From contig CANLMI010000002.1 of NCBI GenBank assembly GCA_947492375.1, forward strand, positions 621,529 through 685,528: a stretch of DNA of 64,000 nucleotides, in the 5' to 3' direction. The DNA comes from an uncultured Kordiimonas sp. Lineage in GTDB: Bacteria > Pseudomonadota > Alphaproteobacteria > Sphingomonadales > Kordiimonadaceae. The notes beneath the pieces were generated by a model. That model worked only from the letters and a program-made list of their open reading frames with translations. It had not been told where the DNA came from and made no database searches. A program made the position numbers and the translations under genes. Below are positions 755-32,747 of the stretch, piece by piece; the first letter of the stretch is position 1; every line of letters starts with the position of its first letter.

Positions 755-3700
755 TTATTCTGCTGGCTGAATGATCACAGGTGTTTTTTTGAAAGTACGC
801 TTCAATGCTTCAAAGAGTTCTACCCTTAAAAGGCATGGGAGAAGTAAAAGGGTAAAAATAGTTGAAAGGCTCATACCACCAACAATGGTAGTGGCCATAC
901 CGCGGTATATTGCACTGCCAGCACCTGGGAAAAGAACGAGCGGCAACATACCCATAATCGATGTCAAAGTGCTCATAAATATAGGGCGCAGCCTAAGCCC
1001 AAGAGCTCTCTCAACAGCTTGCTCACGCGTGAGGCCATTAGCTTCTCCTGAACGCGTTTGAGCCACTAACAAAATTGCATTGTTAACAACTAACCCCAAC
1101 AAGATAATAAAACCAATCATCGTTAGAAGGTCTAATGGTGCAAAGCTAAAGATATTCAATATTTTCAAAGCAATTACACCGCCAACAGTCGCAAGAGGTA
1201 TTGTTACCACGACCAACATCGCATCTTTGGGTGACCTGAATAATGCTGCTAAAATAAGGAACAAAAGCCCCAGAGCGAGTATGAAATTAAGCGATAGGGA
1301 TGAAACAGCGCGCTCAAGTGCATCTGCACTACCGCCATATGAAATCGTAGCCCCAGCGGGCAACATCGCCCTGAGTTCAGGTTCTACATCATTTTTCAAT
1401 ATAGAGATCATATCTTCGAGTGGCATACCTTCAGGCTGGGTAATATTCAGGGAAACGGTTCGCTTCCGGTCCAAGCGTTGGATAAAGGTTGGTCCAACAC
1501 CGCGTTCAATTGTGACCAAATCACCAAGCGGAACAGTACCCCCGCCTGGTGTCGCAAGCGGTACATTCTGCAAGCTTTCAGGATCAGACCAATCTTGTGC
1601 TTTTAAGATCATGTCTACACGTTTTTCACCGTCAAAATGCTCGCCAAGCCAAAGCCCGTCACCAAGTGCCCGTATAATTCTGGATATATCCGCTCGGGTA
1701 TATCCAACCTCTGCCAAGCGCCTATCGTTCGGCGTAATCTGTAACTCAGGAGCAATGACATTCGGGTCAGGATTAGGCCGGGCCTGTGCGCCCGGAAGCG
1801 CTGATGATATCAACCGTTGCCCTTCAACGGTAACTGTACGTAACTGTTCGAGATCCCGCGCCTGAATATTTAACTCAACAGAACCATTCCCACCAAAATT
1901 ACCAAATAAATTACCTTGCTGGGCAAAGGTAAATACATCAGGAAATCCAGTTAGGATCTCATTACGAACAATCCGTTCTAGTTCTTTGACATTGCCCTGA
2001 TCTTTCGCTCTCACACCGAGGGTGCCGCCCTGCCCACCCGGAAATGTAATGAAATAATAATTTTTGAGTGCCGGTTCCTGTGTACCATCCATATATGGCT
2101 GCAATCTATCAACAATGACAGAAACCACCTCTTCGTCAATTGTCTCAACATTAGCCCCGGAAGGGAACATCAAGAAGGCGTCAACCGCATCTCTCTTCAC
2201 CGGAGGTAAATAGTTCAGATTTGGTAATAACACCCAACTAAGCGTTACAGCCCCGATCATAAGTGTTGTAATCGTTATACCACGGTTCAGAGGCGTTGAA
2301 GAAAACACCATTAACCGCTTGGCAAAACCCATAGCACGCTCACCAGCTCGTTCATTCTTAGGTAGTTTCTTCAGCCAATATTTAGCAGCAACAGGCAAAA
2401 CTGTTACCGCAACAATTAATGATAACCCAACCCCAATAGCTATGGTCAAAGCAAGGTCAGCAAAAAGCTGGCCTTCAACATCTTTCAAGAATAGAATCGG
2501 AACAAATATCGCTATAGTTGTTGCAGTTGAGGCCATTAAAGCACCCCATACTTGCTCTGCCCCTAATAATGAAGCCGCGTCGGCTTTCTCACCGCGCTCG
2601 CGTAAACGAACAATATTCTCCAGAACGACAATAGCGGCGTCTAACACCATGCCTGTCGCAAATGCAAGCCCCGCTAAAGAGATTACATTTACAGTACGAC
2701 CAAATAGGCCAAGCACAACAATAGTTGTAAGCAAACATACAGGAATCGTAAGTGCAATTAACAACGTTGCCCTTAATTGACGCAAGAACCACCAGAGAAC
2801 ACCAACAGATAACAGTACGCCAATCAGCAAATTGCCAGAAAGCAGATTGATAGCACGATTAATAAATACTGATGGATCAAACGATTTCTCAATAGCAATC
2901 CCTTGCTCAGCCAGAATTGTGGCGTTCAATTCATCGACAACTTTAGTTAACCGGTCAATCGACGCCAGAACATTGGCACCACTTTCTTTCACCACACGCA
3001 TGCTTATTGCTGGGCTACCATTCTGATAAACAACCTGATTGGCCGGGGCTGGGCCTACAGAAATCTCAGCAACATCACCAAGCGTGATAGGCCTTCCCTC
3101 ACGCCAATCTAAAATTAGCGCTCTAAGTTCATCAGGTTCATACTTACCCTTGAAATTCATTAAATAACGCCGACGCCCAACATCCAAATACCCGCCAGAA
3201 CTATCCGTTGTCCGGCCAACACGCCTTGTAATGTTATTAAGGTCAACACCAAGTTCAGCCGCCCGAACAGGGTCAAACTCAATTTGCAACTGATCGCCAG
3301 AACCTGATCCGGCTTCCAAGTTTACCTGAGCAATTCCTTCAACGGCCTCAAGCTTGGGTTTGACATTATCCTCGATAAAGGAAGCATATTCTTCTCGCGC
3401 GAGTGCACTGCCCTCACGAAATTGCGTGAATAGATAAATTAATGTCTCTCCAGCAGGGTCACCGCCATTCATAACAATTTGGGGCCTGTCGGCATCGGCC
3501 GGAAGCGGTGGCAGCCGATTAAGACGGCTTATAATTTCAATAAGCATGCGGTCCATATCGGTTTCTAATGCAAATGTCATTGAAACAAAGCCGTTAGATG
3601 AATTAGAAAAAGTTCTCAACTCTTCAAGGCCCGGTATTCCTTGCATTACCTCCTCTATCGGCTCGACAATCTCTGACTCGATCTCAGCGGGGCTAGCCGC

Positions 3701-8009: not shown

Positions 8010-8263
8010 GTACTAGCCTCCCTCAAACGTGTTTACAGCAATATCTTCACAAGAATTCAGTACTATTCATGCAAAGCGCTACAAAATGGCTTTATTCGTT
8101 TTCTTAAATCGCTTCTTTTAATGAAACAAACCATATCAAAGTTATGATAGTTCACCAAATCCCAAAATGGTGCAAGAAAATTACAAATTATCTAAAATTG
8201 TCTCATTCATTTTTTGTTAAGCGATGTCCTGAAACGATACACTTATTGAGAAGGAGTGATTCG

Positions 8264-9700
8264 ATGAGCGATCGTCGCGTATTGATAGTAGAAGATGAAA
8301 TAACACAACTGGTTTTGTTAGAGTCTGTGGTTTCAAAAGCAGGGTATATTGTCGAAAAAGCAATGACTGGCCGCGAGGCCGTCAATCGCTTGATAGATAA
8401 AAGCCTCCCTGAAGTTGATGTCGTGCTGCTTGACCTTGTGATGCCTGAGTTAACCGGTATCGAGGTTTTGGAACACATCAGGCCATCACTACCAAACTTG
8501 CCTGTTGTTATGCTTACTTCAAAGTCGTCTATCAATACAGTCGTCAAGGCCATGCAGGCTGGCGCCAACGACTTTTTGGTTAAACCGGCAAGTGCCGAGC
8601 GTATTAGAACCGCACTTGCAGCAGCAATGGAAACAAGCTCTTTTGTAGGTGAAATTGCTCCCATGCAGGAAAATCTGAATGAAGGCGGATTTGATGGGTT
8701 AGTTGGCAACAGCACAGCAATGAACAATGCACTGTCATTGGCAAAAAAAGCTTCAAATGCCAGTATTCCTGTTCTCATTGAAGGCGAGTCAGGCGTTGGG
8801 AAAGAGGTTTTTGCCAATGCCATTCATGATGCAAGCTCAAGATCAACAAAGCCGTTTGTGGCAGTAAACTGCGGTGCAATTCCTGAAAACCTGGTCGAAA
8901 GTATTCTTTTCGGTCACGAGAAAGGCGCTTTCACGGGAGCGACCGAAAAGCGTATCGGTAAATTTCAGGAAGCAGATGGCGGCACCTTGTTCCTTGACGA
9001 AGTTGGCGAGCTACCACTCGATGTGCAAGTAAAGCTTCTTCGTGCGCTACAAGAGAAAGAAATTGACCCCGTAGGTGGCCGCCACAGCATCAAAGTAAAT
9101 ATTCGCGTTATATCTGCTACGAACCGTAACTTGGCAAACCGCGTTAGTAGCGGCGCTTTTAGAGAAGACTTATTATATCGCCTGAATGTATTCCCTATCT
9201 CACTGCCCCCTCTTCGTGAACGCAGAAATGATGTACCAGAATTGACAGAACATTTCCTTGAACGCATTGCAAACATGGAAGGCTTGCCGCACAAAAACAT
9301 CAGTGAAAGTGCCATGGCCTTACTGTCGTCTTATCATTGGCCCGGCAATATCAGGCAATTACAAAATGCGCTTTTCCGGGCAGTTATCCTGTCTGAAAGT
9401 GAAACATTGGGGGAAACCGATTTTCCCCACTTAAGCGACCTTAAACCATCAGGTATAGTTGAAAGTGCTTTCCCTAAACGTGCTGCAAATGATCCAACAT
9501 TTGGTGAAATCAGATACCCAGAAACTGCCCTCAACCTCGAAGACACCGAAGGCCAATTCAGACGCCTTAATGAACTTGAAGCAGATATTATCTCCAAGGC
9601 GCTCAAAAAATATAATGGAAAAATGACCGAAGTTGCACGAAGACTTGGCATTGGCCGCTCAACATTGTATCGAAAGGTAGCAGAGCATGGCTTAGAATAG
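8264..9700 (+). CDS. Sigma-54-dependent response regulator (NtrC family), no partner kinase nearby
   Basis: This 478-residue regulator has three domains: a receiver (about 4-118, phospho-acceptor Asp57 in VDVVLLDLVMPE), an AAA+ sigma-54 activation domain (about 145-370, Walker A GESGVGKE, GAFTGA loop for contact with sigma-54, GGTLFLDEVGELP) and a C-terminal Fis-type helix-turn-helix (TEVARRLGIGRSTLYRKV). I chose the ATG at 8264 because AAGGAG lies 7 bases upstream. The longer open frame back to 8144 adds 40 residues with no domain content. No histidine kinase gene is adjacent, so it is an orphan here. murI follows after 9 bases, suggesting co-transcription. Confidence 0.93.
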   Translation: MSDRRVLIVEDEITQLVLLESVVSKAGYIVEKAMTGREAVNRLIDKSLPEVDVVLLDLVMPELTGIEVLEHIRPSLPNLPVVMLTSKSSINTVVKAMQAGANDFLVKPASAERIRTALAAAMETSSFVGEIAPMQENLNEGGFDGLVGNSTAMNNALSLAKKASNASIPVLIEGESGVGKEVFANAIHDASSRSTKPFVAVNCGAIPENLVESILFGHEKGAFTGATEKRIGKFQEADGGTLFLDEVGELPLDVQVKLLRALQEKEIDPVGGRHSIKVNIRVISATNRNLANRVSSGAFREDLLYRLNVFPISLPPLRERRNDVPELTEHFLERIANMEGLPHKNISESAMALLSSYHWPGNIRQLQNALFRAVILSESETLGETDFPHLSDLKPSGIVESAFPKRAANDPTFGEIRYPETALNLEDTEGQFRRLNELEADIISKALKKYNGKMTEVARRLGIGRSTLYRKVAEHGLE

Positions 9701-20029: not shown

Positions 20030-22561
20030 TTATTCATACCGAAGAGCTTTAATAGGATTAGATTGAGCAACACGGTAAGCGCGACTGGCAACAGTCGTCC
20101 ACGCAATACATAACGCAACCAACCCCGCGAACAACGCAAAGCCAATGATAAAGCTCTCGCTTAATCGGTATTCAAAACCCTGCAACCAACCAGACATCAT
20201 GTACCAGGCAAGTGGCCAGGCAAGAACATTTGCAAGCAACACGGGGCGAGAGAACTGCCACACAAGCAAGCGTATAATATCAAGGGTTGTTGCACCCAAT
20301 ACTTTGCGAATGCCTATTTCTTTTGTACGCCGTTCAGCCGTAAATGCGGCGAGGCCGTATAATCCAAGGCATGCAATTAGCACCGCCAGAACCGAAAAAG
20401 CTGCAAACAATTGTGCCTGCCCCTCTTCAACCTGATACTGAGCAGCAATCATAACATCCAGATATTCGTGATAAAGCGGCTCAAGTGGGAACATATTTCG
20501 CCAAACTGCTTCAATATCACCGATTAATGCCGCTGTATTATCGCCCGAGTATGTAATGGTAGCGTTTCTAGTCCATTCAGGCCGTACAAAATAAACGCTG
20601 GGCCGAACACCAAACTTCAATGACCTGAAATACAAATCAGGCACAATACCGACAATTGTAAAATCATGCGTTCCAGCAAGAAAAATATTTGATCGAAGTG
20701 TCCTCCCAATCGCATCATCCGGGCTTGAAAACCCGAGGCTTTTTAAAGCAGACTGGTTCACAACAATACTGGCTTTGCCAATCGTATTGTCACCCTCTTC
20801 TTTGGGAACGATTGCTTCCGCACCGTAACTTTCATCAAAAAACCTACCGGTCAATGGCTCAATATCATACGCTTCAAAAAAGCCATAACCAACCGAATGA
20901 TAATTCAAAACAGGATTTATCTGACCACTGTCACCACCATCCAAGAGTGTAAAACTGGTATTATTGTTCCGGTCTTGACTTGGAACTTCTGATGATAAAA
21001 CCACGCTTTCAACACCGGGTAAGTTCTCAAGTTCACGTTTTAATGACCCTGCTTGCTCCAGAACAGAAGACCGACCCAATCCACGGACAATAAGCTTATT
21101 GTCCGCATTATAGCCCGTATCAAACGACTGGGCATAATAAGTTTGAGCATAAATAACAGCCGTGCATACAATTAAACCAATTGAAATTGAAAACTGAAAA
21201 ACAACCAAAACCGACCGAAACCTGTTCGACCCACTACTATCGGATGATTGATTTGATTTCAGCGTTTTCGCGGGCATAAAACGCGATAAGTATGTTGCAG
21301 GATACATACCTGAAACAACACCAACACTTATAGCGGCAATTGCGAGAGTGCCCAGAAGTGGTAGGTCGCTCAAAAGTTCAACCCCAAGGTTTTTACCGAT
21401 AATTTCATTATAGCTAGGCAGTGCAAGTTCGACACCAACCAAAGCAACAATCAGCGCCATAATGGTAATCGCAACTGCTTCGCCTAGAAACTGAAAAGCT
21501 ATCTGAATGCGTGAGGCACCCATTGTTTTTCTAAGCGCAACTTCGCGGGCACGGTGTGCGGCTCTCGCCGTTGACAAATTCATAAAATTGATGCTTGCGA
21601 TCACCAAAATCAAAACCGCAATGGCCGAAAATGTGTAAACAGTTGTGATGTCACCCATGATAGTCATATCGCCGCTATTGCCTGCATCAGCGCGTGCATA
21701 CAAATGTAAATCTGTAACCGGCATAACTTTAGGCTGCGCGATATCAGTAACTTTCGCTACGCCTTCTATCTGACCGTTTGCCAAGCCATCTGCAAACATT
21801 TCTATCAAGGGGCTTTCAGTGTCCAGCCATTTCCAAACGCGATCCTGCAACTCTTGCGCGGTCGCACCGTCCTTCAACTTGAAATATGTGTAAGTATTAA
21901 CACTTGTCCATGTTTTCAAAAGGTTGGGGGCAAAATCGAACATATCTTCGTCCATCAAAACAATCATATCAGCCACCATGTGACTATTTTGAGGAATATT
22001 CTTTACGACGCCTTTAACCGCCACTTCGAGCTGCTGGTTTTGCAAACAACAAAAAGTTAGTGTTTCACCAACAACATCCGTACGGCCAAAATACTTAATA
22101 GCATTCTCTTCAGTGATCACTAAATCTAAGGGCCGATTAAAAGCAGTTTCTTTATTGCCTTCTTGAAAGGGCAGATCAAATATTTCAAAGAATGTCGGGT
22201 CAGCAAAAATAATACTTTCGGTAAACGCCTCGCCGTCTTTAATAACGGTTGTATTGTTCGTCAACAATCGAACCGAACTTTCAACCTGATCACGTGCATA
22301 GTTACTAACAGCCTCAGCCCAAAACCCCGGCGCACGAACAGTTTTAAATTCTGGCTGACTTCTAGGCACAAAGGCAGAATGAAGGCGAACTATCCTGTCC
22401 CCATTCGCTAACCATTTATCATATGAAAGCTCGTCGCGGACAAATAACATGATCAGAATACAACTCATCAAACCAATAGCTAATCCCAAGACATTTATTA
22501 CCGAGAAAAGCCTATTTTTTATAAGATTCCTCCACGCTGTGAGTATGTAATTCTGATACAT
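20030..22561 (-). CDS. FtsX/MacB-type ABC permease, third of three
   Basis: This 843-residue membrane protein is a duplicated FtsX unit. It has an N-terminal helix (about 20-42), a periplasmic MacB-like domain, three helices between about 305 and 430, another helix near 450-470, a second periplasmic domain and three C-terminal helices from about 720 to 830. It carries the coupling motif RAREVALRKTMGASR and its repeat TKEIGIRKVLGATT. GAGGAA precedes the ATG. This is the last gene of the five-gene operon and differs from the other two permeases mainly in its periplasmic loops, so it may handle a separate substrate. The single ATPase gene upstream must power it. Confidence 0.93.
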   Translation of the reverse strand: MYQNYILTAWRNLIKNRLFSVINVLGLAIGLMSCILIMLFVRDELSYDKWLANGDRIVRLHSAFVPRSQPEFKTVRAPGFWAEAVSNYARDQVESSVRLLTNNTTVIKDGEAFTESIIFADPTFFEIFDLPFQEGNKETAFNRPLDLVITEENAIKYFGRTDVVGETLTFCCLQNQQLEVAVKGVVKNIPQNSHMVADMIVLMDEDMFDFAPNLLKTWTSVNTYTYFKLKDGATAQELQDRVWKWLDTESPLIEMFADGLANGQIEGVAKVTDIAQPKVMPVTDLHLYARADAGNSGDMTIMGDITTVYTFSAIAVLILVIASINFMNLSTARAAHRAREVALRKTMGASRIQIAFQFLGEAVAITIMALIVALVGVELALPSYNEIIGKNLGVELLSDLPLLGTLAIAAISVGVVSGMYPATYLSRFMPAKTLKSNQSSDSSGSNRFRSVLVVFQFSISIGLIVCTAVIYAQTYYAQSFDTGYNADNKLIVRGLGRSSVLEQAGSLKRELENLPGVESVVLSSEVPSQDRNNNTSFTLLDGGDSGQINPVLNYHSVGYGFFEAYDIEPLTGRFFDESYGAEAIVPKEEGDNTIGKASIVVNQSALKSLGFSSPDDAIGRTLRSNIFLAGTHDFTIVGIVPDLYFRSLKFGVRPSVYFVRPEWTRNATITYSGDNTAALIGDIEAVWRNMFPLEPLYHEYLDVMIAAQYQVEEGQAQLFAAFSVLAVLIACLGLYGLAAFTAERRTKEIGIRKVLGATTLDIIRLLVWQFSRPVLLANVLAWPLAWYMMSGWLQGFEYRLSESFIIGFALFAGLVALCIAWTTVASRAYRVAQSNPIKALRYE

Positions 22562-22619: not shown

Positions 22620-25079
22620 TCATTCATATTTGAGAGCATTTACCGGGTTAGAGCGCGCGACATTCATCGCCTGACCACCAACAGTAACCAAGGCAACAAC
22701 AAGCGCTGCAACACCCGTAATAATGAAAGGCACAAGCGTAAGGTCGATCCGGTATGCAAACCCAGATAGCCATTCATGCACTGCAAACCATGTAATTGGC
22801 CATGCGATAAAATTGGCGACGATAATCGGTCTTGAAAATTGCCATGTCACCAAGCGAACAATATCCGTTGTATTGGCACCCAAGACCTTACGAATACCAA
22901 TCTCTCTGATCCTGCGTTCCAAGTTAAATGCAGCAAGGCCGTATAATCCAAGACTGGCAATCACAATTGCAATTGTGGCAAGAACTCCAACAGCAATCAA
23001 TAAGCGTTCCTCTTGGTCATATTGCGCCAAAATTGATTGATCTAAATAATCATAGCCCATCTCCTGAAAAGCGAGTTCTTGATTCCAGCCTTTTCGGATA
23101 CTTTCTATTGCTTCTGCGCGTCGCGCTGGGTCTATACGAACCGTTATGGTCGAAAAGCGTGTTGGATCTGGATAAAAAACCATCGGTTCAATTTCATTTC
23201 TGATTGAGCGGAAATGAAAATCTTTTGATATACCGACAATTCTAGCCTTACGCTGCTGGCCAGGAGATGTTTCGATTGTGATTGCTTGATCGATAGCCTC
23301 TGACGGCGTATCAAAACCCATTTTCCTTGCCCCAATTTCATTTAAAACAATCGGTAATTCAACACTATCTCGCGCTTCAAGGTCCCATTGGATGCGGTCA
23401 ACTGCGAAATCCTCAGAGAATTGCCGGCCCGCCACCATGTCAATTCGATATGTCTCAAAATAGTCTAAATCGATGCGAAGCTGATTAAAGCTTATGAAAT
23501 CTTGTTGCGCAGTACCTACAAAACCAAGCTTTGCCTCATCTTGATGGTCCCAATCCGGGTTAGCCTGTGCGGGTGACACACTAATAATCCCAGGCTGTAA
23601 AGAAATAGCCTGATCAAGCGCCTTAGTTAAACGTGCAGACTCGCGCGCGCCGCGACCAACACCGTAAAGGGCGATCAAGTCATTTTGGTCAAACCCTAAT
23701 GCTACCTCTCGTGCATATTGGGTCTGAATATAAATTATACTTGTTGCTGTGATTAAACCAACCGATACCGCAAATTGAAGTACGACCAAAATCGACCTGA
23801 GACTAATCTTGCGGTGCACATCCGCAGATTGCTCTTTTAAAATTTTAATCGGGTTAAAACGCGACAAGTAAAATGCCGGATAAATACCTGATAATATAAC
23901 CACTAAACCAAGAATGCCTGCCTGCCACATAGCCACATCGCTACGCCATATAATAGAGGTCGAGAGATTACGGTTCATGAAATCATTCAAGGCTGGCAAT
24001 AATGCCTCAATTAAGACAAGCGATAGAAACCATGACAAAACTACGTAAAGCATGGTTTCACCCAAAAACTGCGACACTAATTGTTTCTGATTAGCTCCAA
24101 CAACTTTACGCATCGCAACTTCACGGGCTCGTGTCATTGCTCTTGCTGTTGATATATTAACATAATTGAAGCAAGCAACCGCAAGCACCAAGAAACCAAT
24201 GATTGATAGAACACTGAGTTGTTGAATATCCCCGCGAGGTTTATTCCTGCGCGAATTATATGGACCACCATACAGATGAATTCCCTCAATCGATTGAACA
24301 ATTAACTCTGCCGTAGCACCGTTCGAAGTATCTTCAGAAGCAGCCGTCTCGGCTACCAACGTATTTATATCTGAAGCAAATATTTCAGAATCAATATTAT
24401 CTTTGAGTAGCACATATGTTTGGACGGGAAGGCTACGCCAAGACACATTCACTCGCTCTTCACTGACATATTTTTGCGGCGCTTTGAGCGGCGACAACAT
24501 ATCAATCGTCAAATGTGTATTTTCGGGCAAATCCTTAAAGACACCAACAATATTAAGTGGCCCCACATCACTTTCTTCAATAACCTGCCCAACAACATCT
24601 GTTCTACCAAACACTAGATTGGCACGACTCTCACTAATTATTATGGATGTCGTATTCTTCAAACCTTCACGGCCACCTTCAATAAATTCAAGCGGGAAAA
24701 TATTTAAGAAGCCAGGGTCAGCAAAGTATGTCGGAGCATTAAAGGTGTCTTCACCCTCAATTTTATAACTGTGCCATTCAATGCGACTACGCCCAGTTTC
24801 TTCAACGTAGTTCAACTGGTTTTTCAGCAAGCCAGCGAGAGGCCCCATGGCTGTAGTATAAAGCGTTGCATCTCGTCCAGGTGCAGAAACCAAAGATTCT
24901 ACACGGTAAATCCGCTCAGAATTGTCAAAGTCAACCTCATAATGGGTTTCAAACCAAACATACATGAGAACAAGCAGACTAACTGTTAAACCAAGCGTGA
25001 GGCCAAGCACAGTGATAACACTATGCAAACGGGAACGAAGCGCCACTCTCAACAATGTTCTTAAATAATTTGCAAACAT
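22620..25079 (-). CDS. FtsX/MacB-type ABC permease, second of three
   Basis: This 819-residue protein has the same duplicated layout as its neighbours: N-terminal helix, MacB-like periplasmic domain, helix cluster about 285-410, second periplasmic domain and C-terminal helix cluster. It carries the paired coupling motifs RAREVAMRKVVGAN and IREIGIRKVLGANT. AAGGAA lies upstream of the ATG. The genes before and after are 41 and 58 bases away. The three permeases are clearly related but have diverged well beyond recent duplicates. The ligand is unknown. Confidence 0.93.
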   Translation of the reverse strand: MFANYLRTLLRVALRSRLHSVITVLGLTLGLTVSLLVLMYVWFETHYEVDFDNSERIYRVESLVSAPGRDATLYTTAMGPLAGLLKNQLNYVEETGRSRIEWHSYKIEGEDTFNAPTYFADPGFLNIFPLEFIEGGREGLKNTTSIIISESRANLVFGRTDVVGQVIEESDVGPLNIVGVFKDLPENTHLTIDMLSPLKAPQKYVSEERVNVSWRSLPVQTYVLLKDNIDSEIFASDINTLVAETAASEDTSNGATAELIVQSIEGIHLYGGPYNSRRNKPRGDIQQLSVLSIIGFLVLAVACFNYVNISTARAMTRAREVAMRKVVGANQKQLVSQFLGETMLYVVLSWFLSLVLIEALLPALNDFMNRNLSTSIIWRSDVAMWQAGILGLVVILSGIYPAFYLSRFNPIKILKEQSADVHRKISLRSILVVLQFAVSVGLITATSIIYIQTQYAREVALGFDQNDLIALYGVGRGARESARLTKALDQAISLQPGIISVSPAQANPDWDHQDEAKLGFVGTAQQDFISFNQLRIDLDYFETYRIDMVAGRQFSEDFAVDRIQWDLEARDSVELPIVLNEIGARKMGFDTPSEAIDQAITIETSPGQQRKARIVGISKDFHFRSIRNEIEPMVFYPDPTRFSTITVRIDPARRAEAIESIRKGWNQELAFQEMGYDYLDQSILAQYDQEERLLIAVGVLATIAIVIASLGLYGLAAFNLERRIREIGIRKVLGANTTDIVRLVTWQFSRPIIVANFIAWPITWFAVHEWLSGFAYRIDLTLVPFIITGVAALVVALVTVGGQAMNVARSNPVNALKYE

Positions 25080-25120: not shown

Positions 25121-27544
25121 TTATTCGTATCTAAGGGCCTGAATGGGGTTCGTGTTGGCGACACGCGCAGCATGCCCTGCAACAATGACCCATGATAAGA
25201 AAACTGCGCCACCGCCCGCGATTAAGATCGCGAAAATGGGCAGATCAATTCTGTCTGAGAAAAACCCCAAATATAACTCTGTACTTATGTATGAAAGCGG
25301 TAATGCAACCAAAAGCGCCAAGACAACAGGCTTTGAGAATTGCCAGATAAGCATCCCGATAATTTGGTACGAATTCGCACCCAATACCTTACGTAATCCT
25401 ATTTCTTTAGTACGTTGCTCGGCCATGAAAGCGGCGAGGCCAAATAATCCAATTAAAGCTAACAATACCGCCAAGCCAGCAAAACCAGTAAACGCCATGT
25501 TTAATGAACGAAAAATAGCGTAAACATTCTCAAAAACCTCATCTAAAAATTGCCTTTGTATCGGGTATGACGGGATGAGTTTTTTCCATGTTGCGTCAAC
25601 AGCCGTAAGTGTTTCTTGAACGTTATCAGATTGAATGCGAACAACGCCCCAAGGCTGATAGCTATTCATCATAAACATGAACGGCTTAATTTCGTTGTGT
25701 AATCCAAGGAAATTTTGATCTTTCACTACACCAACTATGGTGTGCTCTCTTGGCGCTCCTTCTTCTGGATAATTATAGAAAGTCTTTCCAAGCGCGTCTT
25801 GCGCATCATTATACCCCAGTTTTTTGAGCGTTAATTCATTAACAATAACATTCACACTCAACTGATCCGATACCAACGTATCATTTGCGATATCAATATT
25901 GAAATTACGACCAGCGAGAAGTGGAATATCCAGCGTACTAAGGAATTGTGGATCAATCCGGTTTAGGTTAACTCGAAACGCGTTGCTTTCATCGCCTCTT
26001 TGCGGTCCAATTTGGCGTCGACTATTACTTTGATCAAATGGGATTTGACTCATGAAGGATACATTGACAACACCTGGAATACGGAGGAGCTCGTTCCTAA
26101 GCGTTTCTTTGTTTTCGGTTACACCTTCAATATGCATTCGCCCAAGTGTCACAAGCTGTTCAGTAGGGAAAATATTAATAGTTTCGCGAACACGTTGATT
26201 TTGGAAATACATCACCACCACAGCAACCAACATAAAGATTGAAATCACAAACTGTGCGCCAATCATTAACGACCGTAGTATCGTTCCTTTACCGCCTTTA
26301 GAGGTGGTATTTTGAAGGGCATCGATCGGTTGTGTGCGGCTAATATGATAGGCGGGATATAGGCCTGAAAAAACACCTACCAATATAGTAGACAAAGCGA
26401 GCCACGGCAGTATTTCTGAATAATTCAAAGCCAGAACTTTTCCTAAAGCCTGATTAAAAACAGGAATAGTCATTTCCAATAGAACCACGGCCACAATCAT
26501 GGCAATGAATGAAATTGCCAAACTTTCCGTCAAAAACTGAGTTAGCAGCTGGGTTTTGTTAGCGCCAAGGGTGCGCCGCAAACCAACTTCACGCGCACGG
26601 CCCATGCTTTGTGCAATTGCAAGGTTAGTATAATTTACACATGCGATGATTAAAACAGCGAGGGCCAGCACCTGAATACTTGCTATAACGGGCATACCAA
26701 TAGCATCCCAGAGTATTGTATTAATTTCATGAAGTGGCTTTACAAGTAACTCAGCCACATTTTCTTTTTCATCTTCAGGAAAATGTTGCTCGTAAAGTTC
26801 ATTGATACGGCTTTGAAGCCATGATTGGTCTCTATCGCTTGAAAGCAAAACGTATGTAATATCGCCGAGCGATAGATTGGACCAATTCCCTGCCAAATCA
26901 TATCCGGTCACCTGATTAAGGATATTAAATGATCCGACAACCTCGAAATTCTGATCGCTCACAAGCGATGAATTGAAATGCGTATTAGCAGGTAAATCTT
27001 TAACAACCGCTCCGACAGTAATTGGGTGTTTATTATCGATAAGCATAGTTTTGCCCAAGGCATCGCCATCAGGAAAATATCGATTAGCTGTTGTTTCCGT
27101 TATTAAAACAGAAGAAGGCTCTTCTAAAACAGAAGCGTCACCCGCAATAAAGTCAAAATCAAATATTCTGGTAAAGGCTGGATCAGTAAACCGCATTTCC
27201 TGATAGTAACTATCATCACCAATCGTCAGTAAAAACTCGTTATTAACGGTACGTGCCATTGCCTCCACTTCAGGCAAGGCGGTATCAACTATTGGGCCAA
27301 AAGCCGTATAAGTACTATCAGTTAATAAAACACCAGCGCCAACTGACGCTGAAAATTTGGATCCAATCGTGTAAATTCTACCAGCATTCTCGAAATTTTG
27401 GTCATGGCTACGCTCATAATCTGCCAAGACCCAACCAAACACATAAACAGCCAGACCCAGTGACAGACCAACAGTATTGATAAACGCGTAAAGGCGATTT
27501 TTAATCAAATTACGAAGAGCACTTTTTATATAGTTCTGAAACAT
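25121..27544 (-). CDS. FtsX/MacB-type ABC permease, first of three
   Basis: This 807-residue permease has eight expected membrane helices and two MacB-like periplasmic domains. Coupling motifs are RAREVGLRRTLGANK in the first half and TKEIGLRKVLGANS in the second. I place the start at 27544 because GGAGGG lies directly upstream; the longer frame begins at a GTG that is itself part of that ribosome site. It follows the ATPase gene by about 110 bases. Proteins of this class work as mechanotransmission machines that move lipoproteins, peptides or drugs out of the periplasm, rather than as classical importers. Confidence 0.93.
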   Translation of the reverse strand: MFQNYIKSALRNLIKNRLYAFINTVGLSLGLAVYVFGWVLADYERSHDQNFENAGRIYTIGSKFSASVGAGVLLTDSTYTAFGPIVDTALPEVEAMARTVNNEFLLTIGDDSYYQEMRFTDPAFTRIFDFDFIAGDASVLEEPSSVLITETTANRYFPDGDALGKTMLIDNKHPITVGAVVKDLPANTHFNSSLVSDQNFEVVGSFNILNQVTGYDLAGNWSNLSLGDITYVLLSSDRDQSWLQSRINELYEQHFPEDEKENVAELLVKPLHEINTILWDAIGMPVIASIQVLALAVLIIACVNYTNLAIAQSMGRAREVGLRRTLGANKTQLLTQFLTESLAISFIAMIVAVVLLEMTIPVFNQALGKVLALNYSEILPWLALSTILVGVFSGLYPAYHISRTQPIDALQNTTSKGGKGTILRSLMIGAQFVISIFMLVAVVVMYFQNQRVRETINIFPTEQLVTLGRMHIEGVTENKETLRNELLRIPGVVNVSFMSQIPFDQSNSRRQIGPQRGDESNAFRVNLNRIDPQFLSTLDIPLLAGRNFNIDIANDTLVSDQLSVNVIVNELTLKKLGYNDAQDALGKTFYNYPEEGAPREHTIVGVVKDQNFLGLHNEIKPFMFMMNSYQPWGVVRIQSDNVQETLTAVDATWKKLIPSYPIQRQFLDEVFENVYAIFRSLNMAFTGFAGLAVLLALIGLFGLAAFMAEQRTKEIGLRKVLGANSYQIIGMLIWQFSKPVVLALLVALPLSYISTELYLGFFSDRIDLPIFAILIAGGGAVFLSWVIVAGHAARVANTNPIQALRYE

Positions 27545-27656
27545 TTTTCCCTCCACGAGCCTTATTTTTATATTTTGCCGCTTTTAATTATAGTCTTTGG
27601 TAATTATTCATTTTTGGCAGGGCTCTAGCTGTCGCATTGCTGTTTTATTTTATGGC

Positions 27657-28340
27657 CTATATTGCTGCACGAACATTTTCAGTTACTACATGACCGTCGA
27701 ACAGGTTGATGGTTCTGCGGGCATAATCAGCGTGTGCCGGGCTGTGCGTTACCATTACAATTGTTGTGCCCTCTTCGTTCAGCGTTTGAAGCATTTCCAT
27801 AACTTCCTGGCCATGCGCACTATCTAGGTTACCTGTTGGCTCATCCGCCAGAATCATTGCTTGATCACCCACAACTGCACGGGCAACCGCAACCCGTTGC
27901 TGCTGACCACCAGAGAGCTGACTTGGCATATGTTTAGCGCGGTGTGCGATACCAACCTTATCCATCACTGCCGCAACACGGTCACGGCGCTCACTTGCGG
28001 GAATGTTGTGGTAAAGAAGCGCAAGCTCGATATTTTCCGCCACAGTCAACTCGTCGATCAGGTTAAATGACTGGAAAATAAAGCCAATATTATGCTTGCG
28101 GATGTTACCGAGCTTAGCTTCAGAGTACCGCGCGATGTTTTCTTCCATGAAGAAATAATCACCTTCACTCGGGGTATCGAGCATACCGATGATATTCAAA
28201 AGCGTAGATTTACCACAACCTGAAGGCCCCATGATCGCCACAAACTCACCTGCAGCAATTTCAATATTTACATTGTTGAGCGCAACTGTTTCGACTTCAT
28301 CCGTTCGATATGCTTTCGATAAGTTATGAAGTTTCAGCAT
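27657..28340 (-). CDS. ABC transporter ATP-binding protein, MacB/LolD-like
   Basis: This 227-residue ATPase would drive the three permeases encoded after it. It has Walker A GPSGCGKST (residues 38-46), Q-loop FQSFNLID, signature LSGGQQQRVAVARA, Walker B MILADEPTGNLD and a switch histidine in VTHSP. The extra length and sequence pattern are those of the MacB/LolD/FtsE group. The ATG at 28340 has AAAGGA seven bases upstream; the open frame extends 15 codons further with no better site. The adaptor gene ends 65 bases upstream. Confidence 0.96.
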   Translation of the reverse strand: MLKLHNLSKAYRTDEVETVALNNVNIEIAAGEFVAIMGPSGCGKSTLLNIIGMLDTPSEGDYFFMEENIARYSEAKLGNIRKHNIGFIFQSFNLIDELTVAENIELALLYHNIPASERRDRVAAVMDKVGIAHRAKHMPSQLSGGQQQRVAVARAVVGDQAMILADEPTGNLDSAHGQEVMEMLQTLNEEGTTIVMVTHSPAHADYARRTINLFDGHVVTENVRAAI

Positions 28341-28405
28341 GTTAGTATCCTTTCTGTCCATCAATAGTATGCGGTTATCGGGCATTTTTTGAGAGCGCCT
28401 AAACC

Positions 28406-29797
28406 TTAATTTAATTTCAAACGATCCATATCGACATAGCTTGAGTAAGGTGATGTAACGACACTCTCACCAGCTTCCAACCCGTCTAGAACTTCGATAT
28501 AGCGTGAATTCCTACGTCCAAGGCGAACCGAGCGTTTAATTGCTTGTGACCCATCGGGTGCCACGACAAAAATCCAATTACCGCCAGTGTCTTGAAAGAA
28601 AGCGCCATTTGGTATCAAGAGTGCTTTAGTTTCATCACCCAACGTTAATTTTGTTTGTATTGTTTGACCGCGGCGGATGCCTTCCGCCTGATCGCTTGTA
28701 AACACCATATCCACTTCAAACTGACCATTATTCACCTGCGGATAAATTTTCGAGATGCGCATTTGATACGTGCTGCCACCGCGTTCGAAGTTAGCAGTTT
28801 GATCAATATCGACACGGCCCAGATAAAACTCATCAATATTAGCCGTTAACTTAAACTGGTCTGGATCATCAACTTGCCCCAAACGACCACCACGTGTGAT
28901 GCTTTGCCCAATCTCAATATTGAAACCAGAGAGCTTGCCAGAAACAGGCGCTCGAACATTTAAGGCATCGAGGTTCTGGCGGGCAAAGTCTAAATTCTTT
29001 TCTAATTGAATAGCCCGCTCCTGAAGATACGCCAATTGCTGTTCCTGCATGCGTGCATCCGTTGCCTGGCTTTCCAGTGTCAAGTCACGGCGCGTGACAT
29101 TATATGCAAGCTCATCTTCGGTTTCATCTAAGACTTGCTGGGAAACCGTACCATTCGTGATCAATTGACGCTGGCGTTCTGCCTGACGCGTCAGACGCTT
29201 AATCTGATAACTAAAATCCGCAAGATTACGCTTATGCGACAAACGATTTTGCTCTAATTGAAGTTCAATTGTTCTGAGGTTGTTAAGCTGCTCTGTCACA
29301 AGCGCTTCGTTACGTGTTACCTCTAATTGCAAGCTTGTATTAGATAATTCAGCAATCAAATCACCTTCTTTGATTACAGTACCATCTTCGACAAGAACAC
29401 GCTCAACCCGCCCCCCCTCGATTGCATCAAGAAATACTGTTTTCAAGGGCGTTACCCGGGCACGAACAGGAATAAAGTCTTCGAACACACCTTCAGTGAC
29501 AGTCGAAACAACAATGCGGTTTTCATCCACCCTGAAAGTCCGACCGCTGCCAACATCCTGAAACGCAAACCATAATAAAACCCCTACACCAATCACAGCA
29601 GCCGCAATAATGGCATATTTGATTGGATTACGTTTCTTTTCAACAACACGGTCCATCCCTGAACCAGAGATTGATGGCTTCGGTGGCATGCCCTTAGGCA
29701 TTTTCGGTGCCTTTCTTCCTGCATTAGCAGACCCAGAGTTAGTTGTTTGGGTTTCCTCGCTGTCGGGATTATTATTCATATTTGTTACCGTACCCAT
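28406..29797 (-). CDS. HlyD-family periplasmic adaptor of the ABC export system
   Basis: This 463-residue adaptor is anchored by one N-terminal helix (about 50-70, following a Pro- and Lys-rich cytoplasmic tail). It has a lipoyl half-motif (GGRVERVLVEDGTVIKEGD region), a long coiled-coil hairpin (about 155-270), the second lipoyl half (VRAPVSGKLSG) and beta-barrel domains to the end. It should link the ABC permeases to an outer-membrane channel, none of which is in the window. The ATG at 29797 is preferred; GTG at 29809 and ATG at 29779 are alternatives. A sigma-54-type promoter lies about 60-70 bases upstream. It is the first gene of the operon. Confidence 0.9.
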   Translation of the reverse strand: MGTVTNMNNNPDSEETQTTNSGSANAGRKAPKMPKGMPPKPSISGSGMDRVVEKKRNPIKYAIIAAAVIGVGVLLWFAFQDVGSGRTFRVDENRIVVSTVTEGVFEDFIPVRARVTPLKTVFLDAIEGGRVERVLVEDGTVIKEGDLIAELSNTSLQLEVTRNEALVTEQLNNLRTIELQLEQNRLSHKRNLADFSYQIKRLTRQAERQRQLITNGTVSQQVLDETEDELAYNVTRRDLTLESQATDARMQEQQLAYLQERAIQLEKNLDFARQNLDALNVRAPVSGKLSGFNIEIGQSITRGGRLGQVDDPDQFKLTANIDEFYLGRVDIDQTANFERGGSTYQMRISKIYPQVNNGQFEVDMVFTSDQAEGIRRGQTIQTKLTLGDETKALLIPNGAFFQDTGGNWIFVVAPDGSQAIKRSVRLGRRNSRYIEVLDGLEAGESVVTSPYSSYVDMDRLKLN

Positions 29798-29853
29798 TTT
29801 TCTATCCACTGATTATATATGAAAGGCACCACGCCTAAACTTTCTCTGTACTA

Positions 29854-29869
29854 AGCAATACCCATGCCA
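29854..29869 (-). promoter_or_regulatory. Sigma-54 (-24/-12) promoter of the ABC export operon
   Basis: On the minus strand the sequence reads TGGCATGGGTATTGCT, fitting the consensus TGGCAYG-N4-TTGCW exactly, with ten bases between the GG at -24 and the GC at -12. The predicted transcript start is near 29843, about 46 bases before the adaptor ATG. A sigma-54 activator gene is directly divergent. Confidence 0.85.
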
Positions 29870-29929
29870 CAACATAAGATATTGATATAAAATGATTTTT
29901 TAATTTATCATTAAAAATATATTTTTCAT

Positions 29930-29968
29930 ATGTACGAAAATGAACACTTGATGTACGCTTCTGAACAC
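29930..29968. promoter_or_regulatory. Twin activator-binding sites (direct repeats, 21-bp spacing)
   Basis: ATGTACGAAAATGAACAC (29930-29947) and ATGTACGCTTCTGAACAC (29951-29968) share 14 of 18 bases and start 21 bp apart, so they face the same side of the helix. Each is an imperfect dyad with TGTnC half-sites. They lie about 95-120 bp upstream of the predicted sigma-54 start, the usual enhancer position, and 24 bp before the regulator ATG, so self-control is also possible. Confidence 0.75.
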
Positions 29969-29992: not shown

Positions 29993-31405
29993 ATGGCGAA
30001 CAAAGACGGTAAAATCCTGATCGTTGACGATGACGAGGATATCCTCGTTGCAGGCAAGCTTCTACTCAAACGCCATTATGCCAAAGTTATCAGTTCCAAC
30101 CAGCCCCACCATATCCCCATGTTAATGGGTGAACATAGTTTTGATGCCATTCTTCTTGATATGAATTTCAGCCCTGGCGCTTCCAGCGGTGAACAGGGTT
30201 TTTTATGGCTTGAAAAAATATTGGAAATTGATCCTGACGCCGTTGTTGTTTTAATAACAGCGCACGGCGGCGTCGATATGGCAGTGGATGCGATGAAGCG
30301 CGGTGCCACTGATTTTATCGCTAAACCATGGCAAAATGAAAAAGTAATCGCAACCCTATCGTCTGCTGTCAAACTCCGCCGTAGTCGCAGCGAAGCTGAT
30401 ACATTGAAAAAAACCAATAAGGCCCTCACGAAAGCCAGCGGTAAGATACAGCAGCCTATTTTAGGCTCAAGCCCCGCGACATCCACAATGTTGTCTCTGA
30501 TTGAAAAAGCGGCACCAACTGATGCCAATGTTTTAATTCTAGGTGAAAATGGTACAGGCAAAGAGCTTGCTGCACGCAAAATTCACGAACAATCCAAACG
30601 CGTGAATGATGTATTTATGGCCGTAGATATGGGCACTATAACCGAGAGCCTTTTTGAATCTGAATTATTCGGCCACAAGAAAGGCGCGTTTACAGGCGCG
30701 AATGAAAATAAGACCGGTTTATTCCAAGCTGCTAATGGCGGCACATTATTCTTGGATGAAATCGGCAATATTCCCCTTCATTTGCAAGCGAAACTATTAA
30801 CCGCGCTTGAGCAGCGAACTATCACTCCTGTAGGCGATACTAAATCACACAGTATCGATGTACGTGTTATCGCTGCAACCAATCTTGCCAAGGATAAACT
30901 TCTTAATGAAGACATTTTTCGCCAAGACCTTCTATTCAGGTTAAATACTGTTGAACTTACTGTCCCACCGCTCAGGGAACGCCGTGAGGATATCGAAGAA
31001 ATTGCAATATATTACGCAAGCTTTTACGCCAGAAAATACGGCTTCCCAGCGAAGAAATTTTCAAGCGATGCTTTGAGTGCAATTAAAACTTACGCATGGC
31101 CTGGTAATATTCGTGCGCTAAGGCATGCAATTGAACGCGCGGTTATTTTATCTGAAAATGATGAATTCTCACCTGTGGACTTTTCACTACCGGGTCAACC
31201 AGCACAACCGACCATTAGTCCTGATTCAAATAGTACTTCCGATACGCCAGACCCAGAGGCGGTCGGCCTAAATCTTGATAGAATTGAAAAACAAACAATC
31301 AGGCAAGCGCTGAAGAAACATCGCTATAATATCAGTCATGCTGCCAAAGAACTTGGCCTTACACGCGCGGCCCTATACCGCAGGATGGAAAAACATGAGC
31401 TTTAA
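29993..31405 (+). CDS. Sigma-54-dependent response regulator of the ABC export system
   Basis: This 470-residue activator has a receiver domain (about 6-125, phospho-acceptor Asp56 in FDAILLDMNF), an AAA+ domain (about 155-380, Walker A GENGTGKE, GAFTGA loop, GGTLFLDEIGNIP) and a C-terminal Fis-type helix-turn-helix (ISHAAKELGLTRAALYRRM). It is transcribed away from the ABC operon and very likely binds the twin repeats between them. GGGGAG precedes the ATG. Its last 11 bases overlap the start of the partner kinase, implying coupled translation. It shares the domain plan of the orphan regulator at 8.3 kb but is not a close copy. Confidence 0.95.
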   Translation: MANKDGKILIVDDDEDILVAGKLLLKRHYAKVISSNQPHHIPMLMGEHSFDAILLDMNFSPGASSGEQGFLWLEKILEIDPDAVVVLITAHGGVDMAVDAMKRGATDFIAKPWQNEKVIATLSSAVKLRRSRSEADTLKKTNKALTKASGKIQQPILGSSPATSTMLSLIEKAAPTDANVLILGENGTGKELAARKIHEQSKRVNDVFMAVDMGTITESLFESELFGHKKGAFTGANENKTGLFQAANGGTLFLDEIGNIPLHLQAKLLTALEQRTITPVGDTKSHSIDVRVIAATNLAKDKLLNEDIFRQDLLFRLNTVELTVPPLRERREDIEEIAIYYASFYARKYGFPAKKFSSDALSAIKTYAWPGNIRALRHAIERAVILSENDEFSPVDFSLPGQPAQPTISPDSNSTSDTPDPEAVGLNLDRIEKQTIRQALKKHRYNISHAAKELGLTRAALYRRMEKHEL

Positions 31406-32747
31406 ACGATTTAGTTTTCTCCTCGCTGTTCGCCTCGTCGGGATAATGGTTACCTTAATGGGGCTTGTCTTCCTGTTCACAACGCCTGGCTATCATGCGG
31501 CCACATTGCTGATGCTGTGCTTAACTGCTGCGCTTACCTATAACGTCTTGCACTTTATTTCCCGAACAAACGCCGAAATATCTCGGTTTTTAGATGCCGC
31601 CCGCTATGCCGACTTTGGGCAGAGGTTTAATTTCAAGCACTTAGGCGCAGGCTTTGAAGAGCTCGGCGACACCTTTACTGATATCTTGGAGCGCTTCCGC
31701 GAAGTTCGCACAGGACAAGAAGAAGAACTGCGACACCTTAAAGCCCTTGTTGAGCACGTCCCAGTTCCTCTAATATCGCTCCATCAAAACGGTAGTATTA
31801 CGCAGTGGAACAATTCAGCCCGCCGCCTTTTTGGTAGTGCCCATGTCACAAAAGCATCGGATCTTATGCAATTTGGTGCTCGCTTTCATGAAGAGATTAT
31901 ATCGATTAAAACAGGCGAGCGGAAACTGGCAGTTTTTATTGTTGATGATGTTGAACAACGCGTAACAGTTGCAGCGACACAAATTATTTTAGCTGGAGAC
32001 GTCGAGCGTCTAATCAGTTTACAGGATATTCAAAGCGAACTTGATATCGCACAATTAGAAGCCTGGCAGGATTTAGTTCGGGTTCTAACACATGAAATTA
32101 TGAACTCAATCACCCCGGTTGCGTCACTCGCTAAAACAGCCGAAGATTTGGTTGATGATGTCAGGAGCCGTGTTGCCGACCAACCTGATCTCGTCGAAGA
32201 ACTAAGTGATGTAAAAGACGCTGTCAAAACTGTTGCACGCAGATCCGACGGCCTAATGCAATTTGTAACCAGTTACAGGCGCCTGACCCGCTTACCTCCA
32301 CCAGAGAAATCGCGTATCGCAATCAGTGAATTATTCAACAGTGTTCAATTACTTGGCACTCATGATTGGGGTGATAATAAAATAACGTTGAATATTGATA
32401 TTTCACCAAGCGAACTTGATCTAAACGCTGACCCTAAAATGATCGAGCAGATTTTGATCAATATGCTGCAAAATGCAGGACATGCTCTCGAAGGCTCCCA
32501 AAACCCAACTGTATGGATGAGCGCGCGCCTAAGCAGCCGCGGTAGAACGATTATCGAAATTGAAGATAATGGACCAGGCATTGACGATGAAATCGCACAA
32601 AAAATCTTCGTTCCTTTCTTCACAACCAAACGCGAAGGCAGCGGTGTCGGCCTTGCGCTCACGCGGCAGGTGATGATCGCTCACAGTGGTGCCATTACCT
32701 ATAAAAAACGCGAAGGCAGGGGCAGTATTTTCACCTTAACATTCTAA
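31395..32747 (+). CDS. Sensor histidine kinase paired with the sigma-54 regulator
   Basis: This 450-residue kinase has two N-terminal membrane helices (about 8-29 and 33-54) with only a few residues between them, so it has almost no periplasmic sensor. A PAS-like domain (about 115-210) follows. The H-box is LVRVLTHEIMNSITP with phospho-acceptor His233, and the ATPase domain has an N-box (QILINMLQNAGHAL) and G-boxes (DNGPGID, GSGVGLAL). It belongs to the NtrY-like group with a HEIMN box. I start it at 31395, the ATG inside the last codons of the regulator. The input may be a membrane or cytoplasmic cue. Confidence 0.94.
   Translation: MSFKRFSFLLAVRLVGIMVTLMGLVFLFTTPGYHAATLLMLCLTAALTYNVLHFISRTNAEISRFLDAARYADFGQRFNFKHLGAGFEELGDTFTDILERFREVRTGQEEELRHLKALVEHVPVPLISLHQNGSITQWNNSARRLFGSAHVTKASDLMQFGARFHEEIISIKTGERKLAVFIVDDVEQRVTVAATQIILAGDVERLISLQDIQSELDIAQLEAWQDLVRVLTHEIMNSITPVASLAKTAEDLVDDVRSRVADQPDLVEELSDVKDAVKTVARRSDGLMQFVTSYRRLTRLPPPEKSRIAISELFNSVQLLGTHDWGDNKITLNIDISPSELDLNADPKMIEQILINMLQNAGHALEGSQNPTVWMSARLSSRGRTIIEIEDNGPGIDDEIAQKIFVPFFTTKREGSGVGLALTRQVMIAHSGAITYKKREGRGSIFTLTF

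Follow-up and report, generated by a model that had tools for sequence, protein, structure and literature searches.

A conserved candidate sigma-54 enhancer–promoter unit between an NtrC-type regulator and a MacAB-like export operon, with similar promoters at dispersed permease genes

The sigma-54 activators NtrC, ZraR, GlrR and AtoC combine a receiver domain, an AAA+ module and a Fis-type helix-turn-helix (HTH) and act through dyads that lie roughly 100 bp ahead of -24/-12 promoters. The locus described here is built in the same way and, as in NtrC-family systems, includes an IHF-like element, here at the main operon. It differs from the four systems in having its own dyad and a permease regulon, and its regulator reaches no NCBIfam equivalog cut-off among the matches listed (best 357 of 503 bits). 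Its TGT-N10-ACA dyad is of a familiar kind, because several Desulfovibrio activator motifs in the accessible part of PMC4641369 consist of TGT and ACA half-sites 9, 11 or 12 bp apart.

On the transport side, MacAB-TolC and DarBCD are the closest relatives, sharing with this locus an HlyD-type adaptor, a MacB/LolD-class ATPase and a MacB-type permease. Unlike in these systems, the ATPase is separate here, there are several permeases per ATPase, and the proteins stay below the curated Dar cut-offs. The Bce modules (BceAB-BceRS) are similar in another respect: their MacB-superfamily permease resembles two fused halves, and their kinase lacks a periplasmic sensor domain. Bce modules use an OmpR-type regulator, whereas the present locus has an NtrC-type regulator with sigma-54, an adaptor, two periplasmic MacB_PCD domains per permease and several dispersed permeases. 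In the accessible part of PMC5985334, Bce modules are described as having no adaptor and one large external domain, and MacAB of Salmonella and E. coli as regulated by PhoPQ. Bce kinases have been proposed to sense the conformational cycle of the MacB-superfamily transporter (PMC10314905, in part).

A link between sigma-54 and such permeases has been drawn from promoter matrices, which showed FtsX-like permeases (COG0577) to be enriched under sigma-54 in Gammaproteobacteria, Opitutia and Bacteroidia, in what was called the first evidence (PMC12316311, 2025, in part). For COG0577, the accessible part of that paper gives no activator, enhancer motif, kinase or dispersed regulon. A term search of PMC3162934 gave no mention of MacB/FtsX-type transporters. 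Among open-licence full texts, which leave out most subscription journals, no paper on the activator, its site or the dispersed regulon was found, and the co-controlled gene set is apparently undescribed.

The window, that is, the whole 64-kb stretch of DNA analysed, carries the features listed in Table 1. Measured between the longest open reading frames (ORFs), the gap between the adaptor gene and the divergent two-component pair is 183 bp.

Table 1. Features of the export locus and its control region, in coordinates of the window.
Feature	Position	Strand	Remarks
Permease 1, two MacB_PCD and two FtsX stretches	20030..22561	minus	Pfam and NCBIfam
Permease 2, two MacB_PCD and two FtsX stretches	22620..25079	minus	Pfam and NCBIfam
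Permease 3, two MacB_PCD and two FtsX stretches	25121..27556	minus	Pfam and NCBIfam
ABC ATPase, MacB/LolD/DarD-like	27657..28385	minus	Pfam and NCBIfam
HlyD/RND-type periplasmic adaptor, first gene of the operon	28406..29809	minus	start codon uncertain
Sigma-54 -24/-12 promoter TGGCATG-GGTA-TTGCT	29854..29869	minus	faces the adaptor operon; all 38 orthologous loci have a counterpart on this strand
IHF-like element TATCAATATCTTA (tentative)	29875..29887	minus	between enhancer and promoter; consensus exact in 10 of 38 loci
Putative enhancer dyad 1 TGTACGAAAATGAACA	29931..29946		centre at -95.5; conserved
Putative enhancer dyad 2 TGTACGCTTCTGAACA	29952..29967		centre at -116.5; conserved
NtrC-type response regulator, proposed activator	29993..31405	plus	Pfam: receiver, Sigma54_activat and Fis-type HTH; GAFTGA present
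Sensor kinase	31395..32747	plus	hydrophobic N-terminus without room for a periplasmic domain; longest ORF from 31338

A preliminary description of this DNA had reported an exact -24/-12 match on the minus strand upstream of the adaptor gene, and the minus strand from 29869 to 29854, read directly from the window, is indeed TGGCATGGGTATTGCT. Its GG and GC lie at a spacing of 10 bp, and the transcript of the adaptor operon is predicted to start at about 29843. The exact pattern TGGCAYG-N4-TTGCW occurs once in the window, against 0.08 expected from shuffles. With two mismatches allowed there are 28 matches, and because this number is no higher than expected (28.3), the exact site alone is informative. 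One rpoN match was found in the window's own genome.

Upstream of the promoter, the twin 18-bp direct repeats reported earlier are present: ATGTACGAAAATGAACAC (29930-29947) and ATGTACGCTTCTGAACAC (29951-29968) share 14 of 18 bases, lie 21 bp apart from start to start, and end 24 bp before the regulator ATG at 29993. The core of each is a 16-bp dyad, TGTnC-N6-GnACA, a feature absent from the earlier account. The dyad centres, counted from the predicted start, agree with the repeat position of about 95-120 bp upstream that had been given. The two dyads are two helical turns apart and lie 62-98 bp upstream of the sigma-54 promoter. A mismatch-free pair at 21-bp spacing occurs once in the window, and pairs with up to three mismatches occur twice, against 0.28 expected.

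For comparison, 59 genomes were searched for the regulator: that of the window itself and those of 58 relatives. Close orthologs, scoring at least 424 bits, are present in 36 of the 59. The 38 orthologous loci comprise 36 from the window's order (the window included) and two gammaproteobacterial loci, L002 and L003 (62-63% identical), kept from a named collection with 42 loci; the other 40 were dropped at a best-segment identity of 45% or less. The orthologs are related and close relatives dominate the set, and the counts are thus not independent. In each of the 38 loci the adaptor gene begins beside the regulator gene and points away from it, with two or more dyads, 20-24 bp apart, in the intervening DNA. 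The preliminary description had named loss of the repeats in homologous loci as a refutation; the repeats are kept, with a perfect dyad pair in 35 of the 38 upstream regions and a pair with at most one mismatch in all 38, while 200 shuffled sets gave none. Three or more dyads occur in half of the loci (19/38), and two are centred near -96 and -117 in 29/38, often with a third near -73. Spacings of 21 (29 cases), 24 (20), 20 (4), 22 (3) and 18 (1) were counted. The best sigma-54 site faces the adaptor in every locus, with scores of 12 to 14.5 (the maximum possible), and its TGG and TTG are invariant in the promoter-anchored columns.

Over 95 sites the dyad consensus is TGTACG-AWWT-CGAACA, eight bases of which served to pick the sites. 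Outside these eight, base 6 is G in 91% and base 11 is C or T in 99% of the sites; the other inner bases vary.

Single dyads are no evidence in themselves, since a scan of the window's own genome for one dyad with one mismatch gave fewer matches (129 and 139 by strand) than the reversed control (212 and 201). Six places were chosen from the best-ranked of the matches listed, which are part of the total. At three of them (L081, L082 and L084) there is a dyad pair, and a sigma-54 start is predicted 96.5-108.5 bp away from the closer dyad. Each of these promoters precedes a gene for a lone MacB/FtsX-type permease of 810-820 residues, and neither an ATPase nor an adaptor was found in the 9-12 kb retrieved. 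At L083, L085 and L086 the dyad is single and no promoter lies at a fitting distance, and one further perfect single dyad lies on C1, outside the six places. The three distal pairs are the discovery cases.

The pair was then scanned for in all 59 genomes at a spacing of 21 (one mismatch allowed) and at 20 and 22 (none allowed). The three spacings yielded 53, 17 and 13 pairs, where the reversed pattern yielded 2, 0 and 0, in total 83 against 2. All pairs away from the regulator locus and outside the window's genome, i.e. in the 58 relatives, form a set of 48 distal pairs, located without using the promoter. A sigma-54 site lies in the expected interval at 47 of them, against 50 of 1178 displaced positions (4.2%). 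A MacB-type permease follows 41 of the 48, and in all 40 cases with both, promoter and permease agree in strand. The search for the repeat unit near similar ABC operons that had been proposed yielded a putative regulon of MacB-type permeases. At one permease (L121, G016:C5, pair at 3568) the dyad pair is perfect but no sigma-54 site exceeds the threshold, a possible case of decay or of a variant promoter.

At the 50 distal promoters (the 47 and the three discovery cases), the predicted start lies 85.5-87.5 bp (4 promoters), 94.5-98.5 bp (13) or 103.5-108.5 bp (33) from the promoter-proximal dyad, and these three distance groups step by about one helical turn. For a period of 10-10.7 bp the resultant is 0.746, against maxima of 0.51 in 5000 uniform draws and 0.43 in 5000 normal draws, a statistic weakened by the kinship of the genomes. 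Such stepping is expected if the activator must reach the polymerase from one face of the helix, and the 50 promoters would amount to a natural experiment on DNA looping.

The locus is very probably the control centre of a sigma-54 regulon with dispersed permease targets. The kinase would phosphorylate the NtrC-type regulator, which would bind two or three of the conserved 16-bp dyads. These are set some two helical turns from one another, at roughly 95-120 bp upstream of the -24/-12 promoter. The bound regulator would loop to the sigma-54 RNA polymerase and switch on the adaptor–ATPase–permease operon. Promoters of like build elsewhere in the chromosome, which co-occur with the operon and mostly precede single MacB/FtsX-type permease genes, would be switched on simultaneously. 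To judge from the kinship with MacB, Dar and Bce, the likely outcome would be a sudden rise in tripartite, MacAB-like export, either against or for peptide-like molecules that act on the envelope. As read from its sequence, the switch itself is an ordinary one of NtrC type, and what is unusual is the dispersed regulon of permeases. For a class of export permeases it supplies a candidate activator and its 16-bp site, together with a fixed promoter geometry and a list of targets.

The operon could instead be isolated with its own activator while the distal pairs serve a different NtrC-type regulator with a similar site. Several NtrC-type proteins are encoded in the window's own genome (G000; 9 matches to the query) and could share the motif, and TGT/ACA half-sites recur in several activators in the Desulfovibrio data cited above. 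However, none of the 59 genomes has fewer than two NtrC-type matches, yet dyad pairs occur in 32 of the 36 genomes with the regulator and in only 1 of the 23 without it (Fisher p 3e-11). In the four genomes with the regulator and no scanned pair (G003, G009, G010 and G011), the locus does carry dyads, spaced at 24 or with a mismatch. Main and distal promoters also agree in the sequence of the sites, in their spacing and in their distance from the promoter, and a separate regulator is improbable.

It is still less probable that the dyads mainly repress the regulator's own gene, with promoter activation as a by-product. The sites do lie close to that gene, not only in the window but also in all 38 loci, where they are within about 125 bp of the estimated regulator start. 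This proximity does not account for the distal pairs, which are away from this regulator gene and still have a sigma-54 promoter at a fixed distance, and no conserved regulator promoter was recognised in the 38 loci. The least credible reading takes sites and promoters as chance resemblances or relics of recent common descent. The dominance of close relatives in the locus set speaks for it, but shuffled sets give no dyad pairs, the two unselected dyad bases are kept while their neighbours vary, and pairs also occur in another family (24 of 98 genomes, one each; control 0). The finding is well above chance and larger than first described. The earlier interpretation holds as a reading of promoter, enhancer and activator; its proposal of self-regulation found no support.

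In the 38 loci there is no conserved sigma-54 site oriented toward the regulator. Sigma-70-like promoters toward it, starting within 30 bp of the sigma-54 site, were found in 11 of 38 loci against 8.1 expected. The idea that the IHF-like element is the start of the regulator's sigma-70 promoter was rejected, as such promoters are not above chance. The dyads would sit between a sigma-70-like promoter and the start codon, and autorepression of the regulator through them is therefore possible.

The IHF-like element was called with the IHF consensus. Exact matches occur in 10 of the 38 main loci against a shuffle mean of 0.28, and matches with at most one mismatch in 23 against 4.1. At the 50 distal promoters, a set counted without a shuffle comparison, the corresponding numbers are 1 and 8. 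Because the element is rare there, it is not needed for the regulon, and IHF was rejected as a general part of the system. The element is tentatively regarded as a feature of the main promoter.

The divergent gene had been described as a GAFTGA-bearing sigma-54 activator, and both the Pfam domains and the loop bear this out. GAFTGA is called invariant in sigma-54 activators in the accessible part of PMC12316311, and 9 of 15 aligned orthologs (alignment A1) carry GAFTDA or GSFTDA, so that screens requiring GAFTGA would lose many members. A second NtrC-type response regulator, 39% identical, lies about 20 kb away (8144-9700), with no link to the system seen; it is followed by a gene resembling that of a glutamate racemase.

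The probable start of the kinase at 31395, chosen by judgement, overlaps the regulator end by 11 bases. Topology was assessed by windowed hydropathy, without a trained predictor, on N-termini read in frame from alignments. The 38 kinases have two hydrophobic stretches a few residues apart or, in several rows, one continuous run; in the window, TTPGYHA separates the two stretches. By this simple measure the kinases at the 38 loci lack an extracytoplasmic sensor domain, as in Bce modules. The near-absent periplasmic part and the analogy with Bce suggest that the kinase may sense the transporter itself. A bolder and rather doubtful reading is that the system is a Gram-negative, sigma-54 counterpart of Bce flux sensing in which the kinase reads how active the MacB-type transporter is and one adaptor–ATPase core is shared by interchangeable dispersed 'orphan' permeases. 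If it were true, a single core would be fitted with different permeases, and TolC, peptidases or a small basic peptide would be co-expressed in some relatives.

In NCBIfam the adaptor is nearest to DarC, the ATPase to DarD and the permeases to ADOP, followed by DarB. Against the DarBCD equivalog cut-offs the adaptor scores 238 of 450 bits, the ATPase 269 of 375 and the permeases 99-131 of 700; the adaptor passes the general RND adaptor model and is the sole match in its genome at E 1e-10. The three window permeases have 811-843 residues. Six permeases score 252-290 bits against the ADOP duplicated permease model (TIGR03434, cut-off 622.3) and, on these scores, are only distant relatives of ADOP. 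Sequence search ties the permease to MacB structures (E 5e-7); the structure predicted for a window permease, with an alignment of three sequences as input, was of low quality (mean pLDDT 42) and was left unused.

A tree was built from 12 permeases of the window's own genome, with a broken one on C4 omitted. In it the six dyad-controlled permeases cluster with a single further one (82/89, which is below the star threshold of the tool). No dyad lies within 500 bp upstream of any of the seven other permeases in this genome (for one, within the 253 bp of contig present). The notion that only dyad-controlled permeases are orphans was rejected as proof of a shared ATPase, as dyad-less permeases are also without an adjacent close ATPase. 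A tblastn search of the fetched permease stretches found only two ABC ATPases, both distant (29% identity), in L167 and L168. The question of which ATPase drives orphan MacB-type permeases becomes testable with this regulon.

Beyond the order, 13 of 398 phylum genomes match the regulator profile at E 1e-150. Ten of these loci are outside the first set, five in family f45 and five with less regular dyads. Two members of the order, at 53% and 52% identity, are less regular. The f45 loci (L130-L134) have a perfect dyad pair and a degenerate facing site, with TTGTA or TTGAT at -12 and scores of 10-11.5. This family, the source of the 24 pairs mentioned above, all of them perfect, is probably gammaproteobacterial, since its member G472 has exactly the same pair as the Planctobacterium locus L003.

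Seven plasmid records hold a regulator homolog (42-49% identity), four of them without a dyad next to the regulator. Pseudoalteromonas (L171) has an adaptor–ATPase–permease operon and one perfect dyad. Hymenobacter volaticus (L173) has the divergent order of the window, with adaptor, ATPase and three permeases, and no recognisable dyad within 420 bp. No dyad was found next to the regulator in L174 and L176, and only a sigma-54-like site in L177. Parabacteroides (L172) and Phocaeicola (L175), both Bacteroidota, have two dyads 21 bp apart upstream of the regulator homolog, with one mismatch in each and in an imperfect GTGCG-N4-CGCAC form.

Seven of the 48 distal pairs are not before a permease. 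M61-type peptidases follow the pair in two relatives (L111:1787-3355 and L122:1751-3286) and an S41 peptidase in one (L113:1948-3330). In L127 (1074-3420, minus strand), a methyltransferase gene and a TolC-like gene lie behind a one-mismatch pair and a sigma-54 site; no close regulator ortholog was found in this genome (G047, 93% complete). L126 is the remaining pair without a permease. A conserved basic peptide of 31-32 residues is encoded in two relatives behind a dyad pair and a sigma-54 promoter, at L156:3726-3821 and L157:500-598, both on the plus strand. Its gene is preceded by GAGGAGA and followed by a GC-rich hairpin and a T-run that were read by eye and are not listed by terminator scans. 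The peptide ends in RR-S/T-RRYK and is a candidate cargo or small regulator.
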